Shown: positions 8,302 through 31,024, counted from the stretch's first letter. The stretch: DNA of 64,000 nucleotides from Mesoterricola silvestris (GCF_030295405.1 NZ_AP027080.1:1364001-1428000), one strand, 5' to 3'. Numbers and translations are program-made. Notes: a model not told the origin generated them from the letters alone.

Positions 8302-8420
8302 CCAAGGAAAAAATCAAACGCTGGGGCGCAGAGGTCTCGCTGGGGCGCTGGGGTGATTTGCCTTTTTTTACCCAACGCCCCAGCGAGACCTCTGCGCCCC
8401 AGCGTTTATATTTTTCTTGG
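8302..8420. repeat. Large hairpin element, copy 1 (short loop)
   Basis: The two arms are near-perfect reverse complements. Bases 8316-8347 pair with 8376-8407 over 32 perfect base pairs, the pairing continues outward with a one-base bulge to about 8303/8420, and inward (one mismatch) to 8352/8371. The loop is 18 bases and contains a run of T. The same arm sequence recurs at 30701-30906. The element sits between the convergent peptidase and etfA genes, so it could act as a bidirectional terminator as well as being a dispersed palindromic repeat. Confidence 0.85.
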
Positions 8421-23078: not shown

Positions 23079-23391
23079 ACTGGATCTGGAGGAAGCGCAG
23101 GCCGGAACCTTCCGGCCCTGGGTGGGGACGTCCTTCGCGTTCGGCCCCGAGGAGGGGCCGGTGCTGGACCTGGTGCTCACGGACGTCGTTCCCCATGCCA
23201 CGGCCCACACGTCGGGGTTCACCCTGGTGTTCCAGGGCCCTCCCGGGTCGCCGCTGCCCCAGGGCACCCACCGGGTCCGCCACCGGGACCTGGGGGCGGC
23301 CTGGATCTTCGTGGTGCCCGTGGGGCCCGGGACCCATGAAGCCGTGTTCAACCGGCTGGCGACGGCCAGCCCTCTGCCTGGGAGGCCGTGA
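23071..23391 (+). CDS. DUF6916-like small protein
   Basis: The 106-residue protein opens MHELDLEEAQAGTFRPWVGT and has the pattern LDLVLTDVVPH, FTLVFQGPPG, LPQGTHRVRHRDLG and a closing IFVVPVGPG, which I recognise as the DUF6916 type seen next to tail-collar genes. It is probably cytoplasmic or virion-like, with no signal peptide. It overlaps the acetyltransferase gene by eight bases and shares one base with the next start (TGATG), so the genes form one tightly packed translational unit. Confidence 0.65.
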   Translation: MHELDLEEAQAGTFRPWVGTSFAFGPEEGPVLDLVLTDVVPHATAHTSGFTLVFQGPPGSPLPQGTHRVRHRDLGAAWIFVVPVGPGTHEAVFNRLATASPLPGRP

Positions 23392-23897
23392 TGGCATCGC
23401 CCTATATCGGAGAGATCCGCATGTTCGCGGGCACGTTCGCGCCCGTGGGGTGGGCGTTCTGCGACGGCGCGGAGCTCCCCATTTCGGGAAATGACGCGTT
23501 GTTCAACCTCATCGGCACCACGTACGGCGGGGATGGGGTGAACGTCTTCGCCCTGCCCGATCTCCGGGGCCGACTGCCCCTGCACGCCGGGCCCGGCTAC
23601 GTGCTGGGTCAAACCGGCGGCCAGGAATCCGTGGCCCTCACCGCCAGCCACATGCCTCCGCACAGCCACGGCCTGCTGGCAGTCGCCGCGCCGGGCGCCG
23701 CGGCGGTGCCGGCCCCGGAAGGCAACCTCATCGCCGGGGGCCGGAGCCGGATGTTCGTTCCCGCCGGCGCCGCGACCCCCCTGGGCGTTGCCGCCCTGAC
23801 CCCCGTGGGCCAGGGCCTGGCCCACGACAACCTGATGCCCTGCCTGGCGGTGAATTTCATCATCAGCCTGTTCGGCGTCTACCCGACGCCGACCTGA
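23391..23897 (+). CDS. Phage tail collar-domain protein 1 (MdpB-like)
   Basis: The 168-residue protein has a tail-collar domain: the N-terminal SPYIGEIRMFAGTFAPVGWA, then CDGAELPIS and LFNLIGTTYGGDG, then FALPDLRGRLPLHAG. Its second half is a variable, Gly/Ala-rich beta region with HMPPHSHG and a C-terminal LAVNFIISLFGVYP. Proteins of this type are known as microcystin-dependent protein B-like and are related to phage tail-fibre collars. GGAGG lies six bases before the ATG at 23391; a GTG three bases earlier is an alternative. It is the first of three tandem paralogues. Confidence 0.9.
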   Translation: MASPYIGEIRMFAGTFAPVGWAFCDGAELPISGNDALFNLIGTTYGGDGVNVFALPDLRGRLPLHAGPGYVLGQTGGQESVALTASHMPPHSHGLLAVAAPGAAAVPAPEGNLIAGGRSRMFVPAGAATPLGVAALTPVGQGLAHDNLMPCLAVNFIISLFGVYPTPT

Positions 23898-23908
23898 GGA
23901 GCGAACCC

Positions 23909-24427
23909 ATGAGTGATCCTTTTCTTGGCGAGATCCGCCCGGTCAGTTTCCCCTACGCCCCCAAGAACTGGGCCCTGTGCAACGGCCAGTTCCTGCCCAT
24001 CAACCAGAACCAGGCCCTGTTCTCCCTGCTGGGCACCACCTACGGCGGCAACGGGGTGACCACGTTCGCGCTGCCGGATCTGCGGGGGCGGGTGCCCATG
24101 CATCTGGGGCCCACCCATACGCAGGGGGAGCGGGGGGGCGAGGAGTTCCACCCGCTGACGACCGCGGAGCTTCCCAGCCACAGCCACCAGGTGCAGGTTC
24201 ACCGCGGCGCGGCCGACAGCCTTGCCCCCACCGGGAACTACCTGGCCGACACGGGTGCGGCGGAACCCAGCTACGCCGCGGGCGACCCGAACGTGGCCCT
24301 GCACCCGAACAGCGTCGGTGCGGCCGGGGGCTCCGGCGGGGCCGCCCAGCCCCACGAGAACCGCCAGCCCTTCCTCGTGCTGAATTTCTGCATGGCGCTG
24401 GCGGGCGTCTTCCCCAGCCGCAATTAA
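23909..24427 (+). CDS. Phage tail collar-domain protein 2 (MdpB-like)
   Basis: This 172-residue paralogue shows SDPFLGEIRPVSFPYAPKNWA, LCNGQFLPINQNQALFSLLG, TTYGGNGVTTFALPDLRGR, ELPSHSHQVQVHRG and a closing VLNFCMALAGVFPSRN. It has no signal peptide. It starts 11 bp after the first collar gene. The N-terminal third is strongly conserved among the three paralogues, whereas the region after the HSH motif differs, which suggests a common assembly module carrying divergent outer parts. Confidence 0.9.
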   Translation: MSDPFLGEIRPVSFPYAPKNWALCNGQFLPINQNQALFSLLGTTYGGNGVTTFALPDLRGRVPMHLGPTHTQGERGGEEFHPLTTAELPSHSHQVQVHRGAADSLAPTGNYLADTGAAEPSYAAGDPNVALHPNSVGAAGGSGGAAQPHENRQPFLVLNFCMALAGVFPSRN

Positions 24428-24454: not shown

Positions 24455-24985
24455 ATGTCCGACCCCTTCGTCGCCGAAATCCGCATGGTGGGCTTCACCT
24501 TCGCCCCCACGGGCTGGGCCCAGTGCAACGGACAGATCCTGCCCATCGCCCAGAACACCGCCCTGTTCTCCCTGGTGGGTACCCTCTACGGGGGGGACGG
24601 GAGGAGCACCTTCGCCCTGCCGGACCTCCAGGGGAGGGTACCCCTGGCCGCGGACACAGGGTCGTACCCGGTGGGTTCGGCCCTGGGCAGCGAGCAGACC
24701 CACCTGATCACCCAGGAACTGCCTTCCCATGCCCACACCCTGAACGCCGTGGCCGCCGCGGGCACCACCACCGCGCCGGACGCGGCCTTCCTGGCCCAGG
24801 CCAATCGGCAGGCGGGTCCCGTGAAGCGCAACATCAAACTGTACGGCGCCGGGAGCCCCGATGCCCAGATGTCGGCCCAGGAGGTGGTGCCGGCCGGAAA
24901 CTCGGCTGGGCACAACAATCTGCAGCCGTACCTGACGCTGCAGTTCGTCATCGCCCTGCAGGGCGTCTTTCCCCCCCGCTCCTGA
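24455..24985 (+). CDS. Phage tail collar-domain protein 3 (MdpB-like)
   Basis: This 176-residue third paralogue contains SDPFVAEIRMVGFTFAPTGWA, CNGQILPIAQNTALFSLVG, TLYGGDGRSTFALPDLQGR, ELPSHAHTLNAVA and LTLQFVIALQGVFPPRS. It starts 27 bp after the second. There are no genes for tail tubes, sheaths, baseplates or capsids on either side, so this trio is not part of a recognisable prophage. It precedes the giant surface protein by 24 bp on the same strand. Confidence 0.9.
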   Translation: MSDPFVAEIRMVGFTFAPTGWAQCNGQILPIAQNTALFSLVGTLYGGDGRSTFALPDLQGRVPLAADTGSYPVGSALGSEQTHLITQELPSHAHTLNAVAAAGTTTAPDAAFLAQANRQAGPVKRNIKLYGAGSPDAQMSAQEVVPAGNSAGHNNLQPYLTLQFVIALQGVFPPRS

Positions 24986-25009: not shown

Positions 25010-28000
25010 ATGCCCAGCCGATTTATGCACTTTTTTCGCTCCGGGGCGCTTGCCCTGGCCTGCGGCGCCCTCGGGGCGGCGACCCTGACCGTCACGTCCA
25101 TCGCCGACAGCGGCCCCGGTTCCCTGCGGGCGGTCATCGCCTCCGCCGCCCCGGGGGACCTGGTCCGGTTCGATCTGCCGACCCCGGCCACCATCCACCT
25201 GATCTCCCCCATCACCATCAGCCGGAACATCACCCTCCAGGGCCTGGGGGCCCGGGCCCTGACCCTGGACGGGGGCTACACCGGCACCGCCCCGGCCGGG
25301 CCCGATCACCGCCTGCTGGACATCGACGCCACCCCCACCGCGGTTTCCATCTCGGGCCTTCGGTTCGCCCACGGCTACGAGACCGGGCCCGGGTTGTCCG
25401 GCACCCCCGGCGGGGCCAACGGGGCCGCCATCCGCATCGCGGGCGGCGGCGCGGTGCTCATCGACGCCTGCAGTTTCGAGGGCAACTTCGACGACACCGT
25501 TCCGGCGGATCTCACCGGGGGCGGCGCCATCTACTGCGCCGCCGGCACCCTGACCGTCACCAACAGCTCCTTCTCCGGCAACACCGCCGGCATGGGCAGC
25601 GCCGTCTACAACGCCGGCGCGGCCGCCACGCTCACCAACTGCACCTTCAACGCCAACACCGCGGTCTTCGGCGGCCCCGTGCTGCAGGCCGAGGCCGGCG
25701 GCACCACCCGGCTCGTGCACTGCACCGTCACCGACAACGTCTCCCTGGATCCCGCCAGTTCAGGCGGCGTGGGGGTGATCAACGGGACCTTGACCCTGGG
25801 CAACTCGCTCCTGTCCGGCAACAGCCCGGACGGCACCGGCGCCTTCGCGGACCTGGACGGCAGCTGGATCACGCCGGACGTGGGCGGCACCGGCACCTTC
25901 CTTTCGGAAGGCGGCAACGTGGCCTCCAGCCAGGGAACGATGGCGGTCCTGGGCGCCTCCCAGGACCTGGTCGTCGCGGCCACCGGCCTGGATGCCTTCG
26001 ACGCCACCCTGGCCCAGGGCGGCATGACCCCCACCCGGCCCCTGCTGGCCTCCAGTCCCGCCCTGAACAATGGCCTGCCGGCCATCGCCCCTCCCCTGGA
26101 CCAGCGCTGGTACGGCCGGGTCGGGAACCCCGATTCCGGCGCCTTCGAATTCGGCGGCACCGCCACGCTGTTGACGGTGAGCGGCGGCCTCGGCGCCGGC
26201 GCCCCCGGGAACATGTCCTTCTACGACGGGGCCGCCCGCCTTGTCTCCACCCCGGCCGGGGGCGCCTTCTCCTTCCAGGTTCCCTACCGGTGGTCCGGGC
26301 AGGTGGTGCCCCTGAGCGCCGGATACACCTTCACCCCGGACCACGTGACCCTCTACGATCTGACCGCCGACGCCTCCGGCCTGGCCTTCGCCAGGACCCT
26401 GGCACCGGTGGTGGCCCAGGCCGCATCGGATCCGACCCCCTCGGGTTTCACGGCCCACTGGTCCTCCAACCCCGCGGCCACCGGCTACCTGCTGGACGTG
26501 GCCACCGATGCGGGGTTCCTCTCCCTCGTCGTCTCCGGCCGCAGCGTGGGCGCCGTCACCTCCTCCCCCGTCAACGGCCTGGCTCCCGGCACCACGTACT
26601 GGTACCGGGTCACCGCCGGGGACGGCACCCGGTCCAGCGCCGTTTCGGGGACCATCGCCGCCACGACCCTCGACCGGTCCGCCTCCGTCCTGGCGCTGGG
26701 GACCACCCCCAATCCGTCCACCCGGATCCAGTCCGTGACCTTCACGGCCACCGTCACCCCCGCGGGCACGGGCGCCGTCACCTTCTACGACAACGGCAGC
26801 GCCCTGGGCGCGCCGGCGCCGCTGGTCGGGGGCGTCGCGACCCTCACCCTCCCGGCCCTGAGCTCGGCCATCCACACGATCACCGCCACCTACCCGGGCG
26901 ACGCCAACCTGCTGGGATCCACCGCGGGTCCCTACCTCCATTCGGTCAACCTGGCCTCCTCCTCCATCACCTTGGCCAACGCGGCCTCCATTCCATACGG
27001 GTCCGGCCTTGGGCTGACCGCGACCGTGACCACGCAGGGCCCCGCGGCCACCGGCACCGTGGCCTTCTGGGACGGGACCACCCACCTGGGCGACGGCGTC
27101 CTGGCCAGTGGCCAGGCCACCTTCACGGCCCTGGGCCTGGCGGTCGGCTCCCACAGCGCGCTCACCGCCACCTATGCGGGGGACACCCTCTACGCCGCCT
27201 CCACCTCCGGGGCCAGCGCGGTCACGGTGGGCCAGGGCGCCACTTCCACCCAGGTGACCTCCTCCGCCGGATCCGCCGGGTTCGGCCAGCCGCTGACCTT
27301 CACGGCGACCCTCGCCTACGCCGGTTCCGGCGCCCCCCCCACCGGGACCATGACCTTCGCGGACGGCGCCACGGTCCTGGGCACGGGCGCCCTCAGCGGC
27401 GCCGGGGCCGGCACCCTGGCCGCGACCTTCACCACCTCGAGCCTGGCCGTGGGCAGCCATACCCTCATCGCCACCTACTCCGGCGACGCCAACTACCAGG
27501 CTTCGCACAACCCCGCGGGGCTGATCCAGACCGTGACCCCCGCCCCCTCCGCCACGGCCGTCACCAGCTCCATGACCCCTTCCGTCTTCGGGCAGGGCGT
27601 GACCTTCACAGCCACCGTGACCCCTGCGGGCACCGGCACGGTGACCTTCCTGGACGGGACCTCCCCCCTGGGGGGCGCCACCCTGGCCGGGGGCGCCGGA
27701 ACCTTCACCACCGCGGCCCTCGGGGTGGGCACCCATGCCATCACCGCGGTGTACTCGGGCGACGGCAACCAGCAGGCTTCCACCTCGCCGGTCCTCACCC
27801 AGCGGGTGGTCCAGGCCTCGGCCCCGCCGATCCTGACCTCCAGCGCCAGCCCCTCGACCTACGGCCAGGCGGTGACCTTCACCGCGGCACTCCCCGCCGG
27901 GGCCACGGGCCAGGTGACCTTCAAGGACGGGGGGGCCGTCCTGGGCAGCGCAGGCCTCAGCGGCGGCCAGGCCGTATTCGCCACCTCCGCCCTGGGCGGG

Positions 28001-30070
28001 GGGACCCACGCCATCACGGCGGACTACGGGGGCGACGCCAACTTCGCGCCCGCCACGTCCCTGGCCCTGGCCTTCTCGGTGACCCGGGGCGCCAGCACCC
28101 TCACCCTCACGGCCACCCCGAACCCCTCCAGCTTCGGCCAGGCGGTGACCCTCACCGCCACCCTCGCCGGCGGCGCCGGGGGCACCGTCACCTTCCTGGA
28201 CGGGGCCAACACCCTGGGCAGCGCCGCGGTGAACGCCTCCCGGGTGGCCACCCTCGCCACCAGCGCCCTGGGCAGCGGGCCCCATACCCTCACCGCCGTC
28301 TATTCCGGCGACGCCAATTTCGCGGGGGCCACCTCGCCGGGCCTCCCCCTCACCACCGCCAAGGGGACCGCCCTGGTCACGCTGAGCGGCCTCGGGGGCA
28401 CCTACGACGGCGCCCCCAAGACCGCCACCGCCGCGACCCTGCCCCCGGGGCTCGCGGTGACCCTCACCTACGGCGGATCGGCCACCGCGCCCACCGCCGC
28501 CGGCAGCTACCCGGTCACCGCCACCGTCACGGATCCCAATTATTCAGGCACCGCCAGCGGCACCCTGGTCATCGCCAAGGCGGACCCGGGCCTGGCCTGG
28601 GCCCCCCCGGCGCCCATCACCCTGGGAACGCCGCTGGGCGCCGCCCAGCTGAACGCCACGGCGAAGGCGGCGGGCACCTTCACCTACACGCCGCCCCTGG
28701 GCACGGTGCTCGGCGCCGGGCTCGCCCAGACCCTGTCGGTGGCCTTCGAACCGGACGACGCCACGAACTACAAGGCCGCGAACGCCACCGTCACCCTGGA
28801 CGTGGGCAACGGGGCCCAGACCATCAGCTTCGCGGCCCTCGCGCCCATGGCCCTGGGGGATGAGCCCCTGGTCCTGGCCGCCACCGCCTCCAGCGGCCTG
28901 CCCGTGGACTTCGCCAGCTCCGACCCGAAGGTGGCCACCGTGGTTGGCCAGGTGCTGACCCCTGTGGCCCCGGGCACGGTCACCATCACGGCGAGCCAGC
29001 CCGGCAATTCGGTCTACGCCCCCGCCGCCAGCGTGAGCCGGACCCTGGTGGTGACCGCCAGCACCCGGCCGCCCACGCTCCAGGTTTCGGCCCTTTCCGA
29101 GGGGTCGGTGACGCCGTCCATGGTCCTGAACGTCGCGGGGCGGGTGGTTTCGGTCAATCCCCTGCAGAGCCTCACCGTCAACGGGATCGAGGTCCCCTTC
29201 GATCCCTCCGGCGCCTTCGGCTGGGCGGTGCGGGCCCGGGAGGGCGCCAACACCCTCACCGTGGTCGCCACCGATGCCGCGGGCCTGGCGGCCCAGGAAA
29301 CCCGCAAGGTGACCCTGGATGTGGCCGCGCCGGCCCTGGTGCTCTCGGAGCCGGCCGACGACATGAGCACCGCGGTCCCCACCCTGGCGTTCGCGGGGAA
29401 GGTGGAACAGGGCGTCGCCCCCGACACCGTGGTCACCGTGACCTACACCGTCAACGGCGGGGCGCCGCTGCAGGCGCATCTCGCCGGGGCCCAGTTCGAT
29501 TTCACGGCGAACCTGGCCGCGGGACTCAACACCGTCGAGCTCACCGCCACCACCACCGCCGGCCGCATCGTCCGGGAAAAGCGCACCATCGCCCTGGCGC
29601 CGGGCTTCACCCTGGCCCTCACGGACCCGATGGAGGACCTGCTCAGCGACAAGACCAGTCTGACCCTGCATGGCCAGGTGACCGGCAATCTCCTGCCGGT
29701 GACCCTGTCCATCGCCGTGGATGGGCAGGTGTTCACGCCTTCCCTGGACGGCCCGGCCTTCCAGCAGGAGGTGCCGCTTGCGGAAATCCAGCCGCACCAG
29801 GTGGTCATCACCGCCACGGACCAGGACGGGGTCGCCGTGACCATCCGCCGCAACATCCTCAGGGTCAAGGCCGTCGCCCCGGCGGCCTACACCATGGCGG
29901 ACGCCCTGCGGCTGCTGCGCATCGTCAACGGCCTGATCGCGCCCACCGCCGACGACCAGGCCCGCTTCGACCTGGCCCCCGTCTTCGAAGGCCTTTCCGC
30001 CGGCGAAGGCCGGCTGGACATCGAGGACGCCATGATCATCCTGAACCTGGCCGCGGGGCTGGGGCTGTAG
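25010..30070 (+). CDS. Giant secreted beta-helix/Ig-repeat protein with C-terminal dockerin-like module
   Basis: The 1,686-residue protein has a signal peptide (about residues 1-24), then a parallel beta-helix of choice-of-anchor-Q type (about 25-385; DSGPGSLRAVIASAAPGD). A fibronectin-III-like domain (about 465-550) is followed by six Ig-like repeats of about 90 residues, each with a T-(F/L)-T-A core and most ending Y-x-GD-x-(N/L). An MBG-like repeat and further Ig-like domains come next. The last 60 residues (about 1,625-1,686) have two helical halves, YTMADALRLLRIVNGL and GEGRLDIEDAMIILNLAAGL, which resemble the degenerate dockerin modules of Deltaproteobacteria and Acidobacteria. It is probably an extracellular adhesive or structural protein. 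The next gene encodes a possible cohesin partner. Confidence 0.85.
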   Translation: MPSRFMHFFRSGALALACGALGAATLTVTSIADSGPGSLRAVIASAAPGDLVRFDLPTPATIHLISPITISRNITLQGLGARALTLDGGYTGTAPAGPDHRLLDIDATPTAVSISGLRFAHGYETGPGLSGTPGGANGAAIRIAGGGAVLIDACSFEGNFDDTVPADLTGGGAIYCAAGTLTVTNSSFSGNTAGMGSAVYNAGAAATLTNCTFNANTAVFGGPVLQAEAGGTTRLVHCTVTDNVSLDPASSGGVGVINGTLTLGNSLLSGNSPDGTGAFADLDGSWITPDVGGTGTFLSEGGNVASSQGTMAVLGASQDLVVAATGLDAFDATLAQGGMTPTRPLLASSPALNNGLPAIAPPLDQRWYGRVGNPDSGAFEFGGTATLLTVSGGLGAGAPGNMSFYDGAARLVSTPAGGAFSFQVPYRWSGQVVPLSAGYTFTPDHVTLYDLTADASGLAFARTLAPVVAQAASDPTPSGFTAHWSSNPAATGYLLDVATDAGFLSLVVSGRSVGAVTSSPVNGLAPGTTYWYRVTAGDGTRSSAVSGTIAATTLDRSASVLALGTTPNPSTRIQSVTFTATVTPAGTGAVTFYDNGSALGAPAPLVGGVATLTLPALSSAIHTITATYPGDANLLGSTAGPYLHSVNLASSSITLANAASIPYGSGLGLTATVTTQGPAATGTVAFWDGTTHLGDGVLASGQATFTALGLAVGSHSALTATYAGDTLYAASTSGASAVTVGQGATSTQVTSSAGSAGFGQPLTFTATLAYAGSGAPPTGTMTFADGATVLGTGALSGAGAGTLAATFTTSSLAVGSHTLIATYSGDANYQASHNPAGLIQTVTPAPSATAVTSSMTPSVFGQGVTFTATVTPAGTGTVTFLDGTSPLGGATLAGGAGTFTTAALGVGTHAITAVYSGDGNQQASTSPVLTQRVVQASAPPILTSSASPSTYGQAVTFTAALPAGATGQVTFKDGGAVLGSAGLSGGQAVFATSALGGGTHAITADYGGDANFAPATSLALAFSVTRGASTLTLTATPNPSSFGQAVTLTATLAGGAGGTVTFLDGANTLGSAAVNASRVATLATSALGSGPHTLTAVYSGDANFAGATSPGLPLTTAKGTALVTLSGLGGTYDGAPKTATAATLPPGLAVTLTYGGSATAPTAAGSYPVTATVTDPNYSGTASGTLVIAKADPGLAWAPPAPITLGTPLGAAQLNATAKAAGTFTYTPPLGTVLGAGLAQTLSVAFEPDDATNYKAANATVTLDVGNGAQTISFAALAPMALGDEPLVLAATASSGLPVDFASSDPKVATVVGQVLTPVAPGTVTITASQPGNSVYAPAASVSRTLVVTASTRPPTLQVSALSEGSVTPSMVLNVAGRVVSVNPLQSLTVNGIEVPFDPSGAFGWAVRAREGANTLTVVATDAAGLAAQETRKVTLDVAAPALVLSEPADDMSTAVPTLAFAGKVEQGVAPDTVVTVTYTVNGGAPLQAHLAGAQFDFTANLAAGLNTVELTATTTAGRIVREKRTIALAPGFTLALTDPMEDLLSDKTSLTLHGQVTGNLLPVTLSIAVDGQVFTPSLDGPAFQQEVPLAEIQPHQVVITATDQDGVAVTIRRNILRVKAVAPAAYTMADALRLLRIVNGLIAPTADDQARFDLAPVFEGLSAGEGRLDIEDAMIILNLAAGLGL

Positions 30071-30087
30071 CCCCCTGGAGGAGCGCC

Positions 30088-30621
30088 ATGAAAACCCGAA
30101 GAAACCTCCTGATCGCCGCCGCCCTGGCGCTCCTGGCCGGGTGCAGCAGCGGCACCGAATCCTCCGCCTCCCCCGACGACCCGTTGAGGCCCGGCCTGTA
30201 TTCGCTGGTCCTGGCCACCTCCGGGGCGGAAGGTTCTTCCGTGCCCGTGGGGGGCTGGACGGGGACCCTGCTCCTGCCGCCCGGGGTCCAGGTGGAGGCC
30301 TCCGCGGACGGGAAGGTCCCGGACAGCGCCCTGCACCTGGCGGTCCCCGGCGGGGCCCCGGCCATGGTCAGCGGCCATCTCCTCAAGAACCCCGCCGGGG
30401 TGGAGCTGTCCGTGGTGGCTGCGCCCAAGTCCCCCTGGAAGGGCAGCTTCCTGCGCCTGGACTTCCTCGTGACCAACGACCTTCCCGCGGTCACGGAGAA
30501 GAGCTTCAAGGCGCTGAACGCGACCCTGGGCGGGTACCGGGTGGTGGGCCTGGATCCCGCCACCCACACCTCCGTGGACCTGACGGGGGTGGTGGCGACG
30601 ACCTTTTCCGTGACGCGTTAG
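30088..30621 (+). CDS. Lipoprotein with cohesin-like domain
   Basis: The 177-residue lipoprotein has a signal ending ALALLAGC (Cys19). The mature part has the strand order and motifs of a bacterial cohesin-like domain: GTLLLPPGVQVEA, an inner VELSVVAAPKSPWKGSFLRLDFLV and a last strand with VDLTGVVATTFSV. It starts 17 bp after the giant dockerin-like protein with GGAGG upstream, so the two are likely co-transcribed. A simple hypothesis is that it anchors its neighbour to a membrane. The cohesin call comes from pattern recognition and needs a profile search. Confidence 0.55.
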   Translation: MKTRRNLLIAAALALLAGCSSGTESSASPDDPLRPGLYSLVLATSGAEGSSVPVGGWTGTLLLPPGVQVEASADGKVPDSALHLAVPGGAPAMVSGHLLKNPAGVELSVVAAPKSPWKGSFLRLDFLVTNDLPAVTEKSFKALNATLGGYRVVGLDPATHTSVDLTGVVATTFSVTR

Positions 30622-31024
30622 CGAGGAAGGCTTCGTCATCAGCCTGCGTCATTGTGTGGTGGAAGCTCTGAACGGCTTGTCCGGATCAGATCGGAAGACC
30701 CGGCGAAAAGATCAAACGCTGGGGCGCTGAGGTCTCGCTGGGGCGCTGGGAATTCAACCCCGGGAGTGAACGACGCGGCGGATCCCGTCATCGTGGCGCG
30801 CCATAGGACCCTCCAGGAGGTTCTGCCGTGAAGCCCCCCAAGGTTCTCCTTCTTTTCCCAGCGCCCCAGCGAGACCTCAGCGCCCCAGCGTTTGATCTTT
30901 TCACCGAGGTTCAGCGGCGCACCAGATTCCTGCCATGCCAGGACACCCGCCTTGCCTCCGTCACGCTCGATGTGCCGATAACATCGGGTATAACCCGTCC
31001 CTGTCCAGATATCACGAAAACACC
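30622..31024. other. 403-bp intergenic region containing hairpin element copy 2
   Basis: The region lies between the convergent lipoprotein and MerR regulator genes. Its core is the inverted repeat described separately (30701-30906). To the right of it, two small palindromes lie side by side at about 30970-30997: CGATGT/ACATCG with a seven-base loop, and CGGGT-ATA-ACCCG. Either could serve as a terminator structure for the leftward merR-type gene. No protein-coding gene is supported. Confidence 0.5.
30701..30906. repeat. Large hairpin element, copy 2 (102-base loop)
   Basis: Bases 30705-30752 are the perfect reverse complement of 30855-30902 (48 base pairs), with pairing extended outward to 30701/30906 after one mismatch. 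The loop is 102 bases (30753-30854). The arm sequence is the same as in copy 1 at 8302-8420, apart from an A-T pair changed to T-A (30728 with 30879, against 8330 with 8393). Like copy 1 it lies between convergent genes. Confidence 0.85.

Follow-up and report, generated by a model that had tools for sequence, protein, structure and literature searches.

A dockerin-like tail and an adjacent cohesin-like lipoprotein as a candidate pair for retaining secreted proteins on the cell in Mesoterricola silvestris

Cohesins and dockerins outside cellulosomes

Cohesins and dockerins are also known apart from cellulosomes, in both bacteria and archaea (Peer et al. 2009, FEMS Microbiol Lett 291:1-16, as cited in PMC9012536), and passages of PMC9012536 and PMC10553843 discuss them as adhesion modules in anaerobic methanotrophic archaea (ANME) and their sulfate-reducing partners. 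Here, we analysed a 64,000-nt stretch of DNA from Mesoterricola silvestris (the window; G000:C1:1364001-1428000 of the 4.99-Mb single-contig genome G000), whose family we take to be Holophagaceae (Acidobacteriota), and found a giant secreted protein that ends in a dockerin-like tail and, directly behind it, a gene for a cohesin-like lipoprotein. With a probability of roughly 0.78, we consider the two to be a dockerin/lipo-cohesin cassette that retains the secreted cargo on the cell.

The closest described systems each share part of this design. The non-cellulosomal cohesin 2xdh of Archaeoglobus fulgidus likewise comes from an organism without cellulosomes, and it aligns to the model of the window lipoprotein (P0002) with Z 7.5 and to that of its homologue L038 with Z 8.0; in contrast to such modules, a single cohesin-like lipoprotein here lies directly behind its dockerin-tailed partner, and both lipoprotein families described below fall outside Pfam Cohesin. 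The best structural matches, 2jh2 and 2vo8 of Clostridium perfringens (Z 8.0-8.3), are likewise non-cellulosomal, but they are modules in multidomain glycoside hydrolases, whereas the partners here are predicted to be lipid-anchored and single-domain. In ANME and syntrophic sulfate-reducing bacteria, cohesins and dockerins occur with adhesin-like domains outside cellulose degradation, and adjacent cohesin/dockerin domains with an immunoglobulin (Ig)-domain adhesin are reported (passages of PMC9012536 and PMC10553843); what these passages describe are annotated domains and scaffoldin-like multi-cohesin proteins, with neither a lipoprotein cassette nor acidobacteria among them. The anchoring scaffoldins of cellulosomes (ScaE, 2zf9; OlpA, 3ul4) also put the cohesin on the cell and the dockerin on the secreted protein; they are attached by SLH domains or sortase in Gram-positives (in part PMC9012536), with one scaffold for many enzymes, whereas here the anchor would be a lipoprotein and the pair is apparently private.

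In the open-access literature searched, nothing on a system of this kind in acidobacteria came up; one Geothrix paper names dockerins, and only in a dbCAN tally. A dockerin with an adjacent lipo-cohesin thus appears to be a means of keeping secreted proteins cell-bound that has not been described before. Gram-negative soil bacteria need their secreted proteases and adhesins kept on the cell, and to our knowledge how acidobacteria do this is largely unknown.

The window pair and its conserved pairing

The giant gene (25010-30070, plus strand, as are all features of the pair) encodes 1,686 aa, and open reading frame (ORF) reading and domain scans show a signal peptide, a beta-helix (aa 137-271), choice-of-anchor Q, six Big_3_5 Ig repeats, MBG_3, two Glucodextran_B-type Ig domains and, last, the tail of about 62 aa (AYTMADAL...NLAAGLGL; 29882-30067), which reads AYTMADALRLLRIVNGLIAPTADDQARFDLAPVFEGLSAGEGRLDIEDAMIILNLAAGLGL and shares 38-54% identity with the other tails of the five-member alignment A4. 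Only the second loop is discernible in the tail; it is dockerin-like (D-x-A-P...E-G-x-L-x-x-x-D) and contains an insertion (D-x-A-P-x(n)-[DE]-G/H). This loop and the helix after it form the second half (29969-30043; D-L-A-P-x(8)-E-G-R-L-D-I-E-D-A-M-I-I-L; A4, alignment A13 and a weak hhalign match), and D38, P41 and D57 are invariant in A4 and A13. The first half (29888-29935; A13 and direct reading) keeps a helix and the position-12 Asp and has lost its calcium loop. Hence, the first-pass annotation, which had seen a degenerate dockerin-like tail on an Ig-repeat protein, was right in both words, since the second loop is dockerin-like and the first calcium loop is absent.

The stop codon of the giant gene (30068-30070) is followed by a 17-bp spacer that holds a GGAGGA ribosome-binding site (30077-30082), and the lipoprotein gene then starts with ATG at 30088, at the distance first reported. 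It encodes 177 aa (30088-30621) and has homologues in genomes G001 (two), G056 and G434. Its lipoprotein signal peptide ends in the lipobox LLAGC, with Cys19 as the lipidated residue (30088-30144; direct reading); LPAM_1 scores 13.1 bits, which is under the cut-off. The mature domain (aa 32-177, about 145 aa; 30181-30618) is a modelled beta-sandwich with a cohesin-like fold.

In the cassette as we picture it, the giant protein would be exported by Sec with the degenerate dockerin at its end, and the adjacent gene, probably translationally coupled, would make a lipoprotein with a divergent cohesin domain private to this dockerin. Once acylated, the lipoprotein would capture the tail non-covalently, so that the cargo would stay on the cell and not be released. 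We infer this binding, its one-to-one specificity, an outer-membrane or surface location and the orientation in the membrane from the evidence below; the giant protein itself may be adhesive.

The first evidence is that tail and lipoprotein travel together. A search of 100 relatives with the lipoprotein turned up two genomes that together have three distant homologues (aligned at 26-32% identity), each of them immediately downstream of a gene with the same tail at its end. A profile of the first four tails found the same four loci and none other at E <= 0.01 in those genomes. The class-wide search with the lipoprotein profile yielded a fifth locus, in G434 (E 5.8e-14), whose upstream gene played no part in finding it and ends in the same kind of tail. 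With all five members, the tail profile gave five strong matches in 93 same-class genomes, each directly ahead of a homologous lipoprotein, the next match having E 0.007. Co-occurrence is therefore 5/5 at window-type loci, and the pairing is more than chance. No pair was found in viral contigs or plasmids, and the genome-contig scan gave the G056 locus as its sole match. Weak phylum-wide matches to the lipoprotein profile (L014-L020 and most others) proved on inspection to be serine hydrolases, DUF11-like repeats and lipoprotein signal peptides, and were rejected.

The cargo that carries the tail varies: the beta-helix/Ig protein of the window, a 2,400-aa DUF4347/Ig protein, a 472-aa Ig protein, an S8 peptidase and a di-haem CCP_MauG enzyme. 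Unrelated proteins that share a tail and a partner are the hallmark of an attachment module. In the S8 peptidase (L005), Pfam also recognises a Cohesin (E 2.4e-11) and scores a Dockerin_1 close to its threshold (20.3 of 22.9 bits). At locus L003, the lipoprotein gene overlaps the stop codon of its dockerin-tailed partner.

A second lipoprotein family behind canonical dockerins

Dockerin_1 searches of relatives brought up proteins whose C-terminus is a canonical dockerin, followed once more by a gene for a small lipoprotein, of a second family; like the window-type family, it lies outside Pfam and NCBIfam. Its profile was built from five lipoproteins, one of which (L053, from another family of the phylum) had first stood among the weak phylum-wide matches and was then recognised as a real second-family pair. 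Across 396 genomes of the phylum, this profile has 70 matches, spread over 42 genomes; of the 39 genomes sampled from the window's family, 37 have the second family. The upstream gene ends in the dockerin motif in 26 of 30 inspected loci, mostly a few to about 50 bp away, and at L113 and L117, with gaps near 340 bp, the lipoprotein match starts late in its reading frame. The other four loci comprise two with degenerate versions of the motif, one at a contig edge and one unexplained. As a control, the motif ends none of 470 ORFs in four control stretches. Four of eight scanned partners pass the Dockerin_1 cut-off (38.7, 26.5, 28.7 and 30.5 bits). The window genome itself has two further pairs, L140 (G000:C1:926628-927182) behind a C10 peptidase and L141 (G000:C1:750652-751002) behind a thermolysin-type M4 peptidase.

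Dockerin and lipoprotein also diverge together. Over 26 loci, their distance matrices show a correlation of 0.83 (the highest in 2,000 permutations was 0.49), and for the roughly 190 aa immediately ahead of the dockerin the correlation with lipoprotein distances is 0.41; shared species history contributes to these values and is only partly controlled, and the cargo compared is those 190 aa, not the catalytic domains. Hence, dockerin and lipoprotein act as one evolutionary unit.

The eight scanned partners carry C10, M4, papain-like (C1-like) and S53/S8 peptidases and BNR/Vps10 proteins, and none of the eight has a glycoside hydrolase match. The first-pass annotation had a non-enzymatic protein as cargo; this does not carry over to the other loci, where the cargo is often a peptidase. 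With so many peptidases among second-family partners (and the S8 peptidase of L005), the lipoprotein could instead inhibit the secreted protein or be its immunity-type partner, the tail being an unrelated C-terminal module, much as Spi is encoded beside the C10 peptidase SpeB. However, several cargo proteins are no peptidases at all (that of the window, the MauG and BNR/Vps10 proteins, the DUF4347 giant and the short Ig protein), and the C10 partners already have an Inhibitor_I69 match. The lipoprotein also co-varies with the dockerin and not with the residues before it, although catalytic domains lie outside that comparison. We consider an inhibitor improbable.

Retention of cargo by a dockerin/lipo-cohesin cassette, outside polysaccharide degradation as the first-pass annotation had proposed, is supported by the pairing with unrelated cargo, the modelled cohesin fold and the canonical-dockerin versions, with binding itself predicted. 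It is reasonably likely that Holophagaceae have a family-wide retention system of repeated two-gene cassettes, each with a C-terminal dockerin on the cargo and a private lipid-anchored cohesin from one of two lipo-cohesin families absent from Pfam/NCBIfam, and holding mainly proteases, haem enzymes and adhesin-like proteins rather than polysaccharide-degrading enzymes. If so, one simple design would account for how Holophagaceae keep at their surface many proteins whose partners belong to no curated family, and cohesin-dockerin biology would extend to a one-to-one, lipid-anchored form outside cellulosomes. Two nameless lipoprotein families would gain a testable function, and many naturally matched, possibly orthogonal binding pairs would be at hand.

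The second family is a putative cohesin, judged by where its genes sit, next to canonical dockerins, and by a weak profile match. An hhalign match between the two lipoprotein families was driven by the signal peptide, and the mature domains alone gave no significant match; hence, their common ancestry is not established.

Fold, profiles and competing explanations

AlphaFold2 (AF2) models P0002, from four alignment rows, as a beta-sandwich (pLDDT 58, pTM 0.52). The top entry of its structural list (the best 1,000 Foldseek chains, realigned) is 2jh2, a cohesin-like module of C. perfringens (Z 8.0; 106 residues aligned at 2.7 A), and cohesins make up most of the top 20, with other Ig, carbohydrate-binding module (CBM) and pilin folds lower. 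L038, the G434 lipoprotein, was modelled within an artificial read-through fusion to its own tail (TGA=W), which is not a natural protein, using alignment A10, where about 12 signal-peptide residues of four rows fall in tail columns. Its mature domain is better modelled (pLDDT mostly about 70-84), and nearly all of its top 50 PDB entries are cohesins (2vo8, Z 8.3, 2.9 A over 111 residues; 2jh2, 8.1; 2xdh, 8.0). At their low to moderate confidence, these models favour the nine-stranded cohesin jelly-roll as the probable fold of the lipoprotein.

The same fold is common to CBMs, and the lipoprotein might be a CBM2-like carbohydrate-binding protein acting alone. Its profile A3 matches Cellulomonas fimi CBM2 in the PDB (6qfs, E 0.0015; 1exg, 0.0048), over about 38 residues only, and 6qfs is also in the P0002 structural list (Z 6.1). 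Yet none of the five window-type lipoproteins has a Pfam CBM match, cohesins outrank CBMs in the structural lists and nearly fill that of L038, and a CBM acting alone would leave the strict coupling to the tail unexplained. We rate this very unlikely.

The earlier claim that the mature domain resembles a cohesin therefore probably holds for fold, by the models and the PDB comparison; in sequence, Pfam Cohesin has no match, and the resemblance is one of modelled fold. With hhalign, the lipoprotein profiles score 17.4 (A3, window-type) and 25.5 (A17, second family) against 12 Pfam-type cohesins, at low hhalign probability, and each exceeds all 200 column shuffles. The tail scores a weak 17.3 against canonical dockerins, aligning the second loop, and is exceeded by 1 of 200 shuffles. 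Such shuffles make a lenient control, since the strand pattern is lost in them. A loop-pattern shuffle test was discarded as circular, the pattern having been taken from the same tails, and NCBIfam 'lipo-invert' matches were, where inspected, confined to the lipoprotein signal region.

The tail profile (four rows) weakly matches domains of G135 that overlap weak Dockerin_1 matches. This genome, of another family of the phylum (L024, L033-L037), has many C-terminal dockerin-like domains (WGDVxRDGxFxTNDVALARAFL...), with 27 weak or strong Dockerin_1 matches, and possibly holds another large non-cellulosomal dockerin system.

Several results weigh against a dockerin/lipo-cohesin cassette. No Pfam or NCBIfam dockerin or cohesin model matches either window protein: Dockerin_1 (PF00404) has no match in G000 even at E <= 10 and none in any of the five tails, and Cohesin (PF00963) has none in G000, in the five window-type lipoproteins or in 23 second-family lipoproteins. 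PDB sequence searches with the window proteins gave no useful match. A dockerin has two 12-position F-hand loops, each followed by a helix, and in the tail the first calcium loop is missing; the strict pattern fits not one of the five tails. The profile links of the lipoproteins to Pfam cohesins and of the window-type tail to canonical dockerins are weak. Both AF2 models are of low to moderate confidence, from shallow alignments; P0002 has no Foldseek match at E <= 0.001, and Z about 8 lies in the range that common folds can reach. In the fusion, the tail is a helix-loop-helix at low confidence (pLDDT about 28-47), and no confident tail-lipoprotein interface was obtained. One of five homologues, at L003 (1450-1956), has a signal peptide without the lipobox Cys. 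The pair would work like a cohesin-dockerin pair, while formal PF00404/PF00963 membership fails by the curated models.

The first-pass annotation had named what would speak against it: no profile match or no predicted interface, and absence of co-occurrence in relatives. Profile searches found no match for the window's pair and the fused L038 pair gave no confident interface, but the genes clearly do co-occur, in all five window-type loci and 26 of 30 second-type loci, and the proposal is therefore left standing. That the tail is a structural cap or a secretion or sorting signal for other machinery, with the lipoprotein as a dedicated chaperone or secretion partner and not a permanent anchor, would suit a conserved C-terminal tail, a model that gave no interface and the general observation that small downstream lipoproteins can act as secretion partners, but it is hardly likely, since four parallel pairs end in a curated Dockerin_1, whose known function is cohesin binding, and the partner is cohesin-like in fold in the best window-type model (L038).

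Directly upstream of the giant gene lie three tandem single Collar-domain proteins (PF07484, E about 1e-27; 23388-23897, 23909-24427 and 24455-24985). The suggested link to these collar genes was not borne out: none of the other 14 pair loci examined has them, and their place beside the window pair is probably incidental. In four genomes of 10-12 Mb from the same class (G072, G070, G074 and G066), there are scaffold-like reading frames of about 3,800-5,300 aa, of which some encode several Pfam cohesins. Shortly 3' of the lipoprotein gene, the window has a 52-nt inverted repeat (30701-30752 and 30855-30906; 98% complementary, 102-nt spacer), whose 42-nt core recurs at 8312-8353 with three mismatches; it looks like a dispersed REP/BIME-type element.
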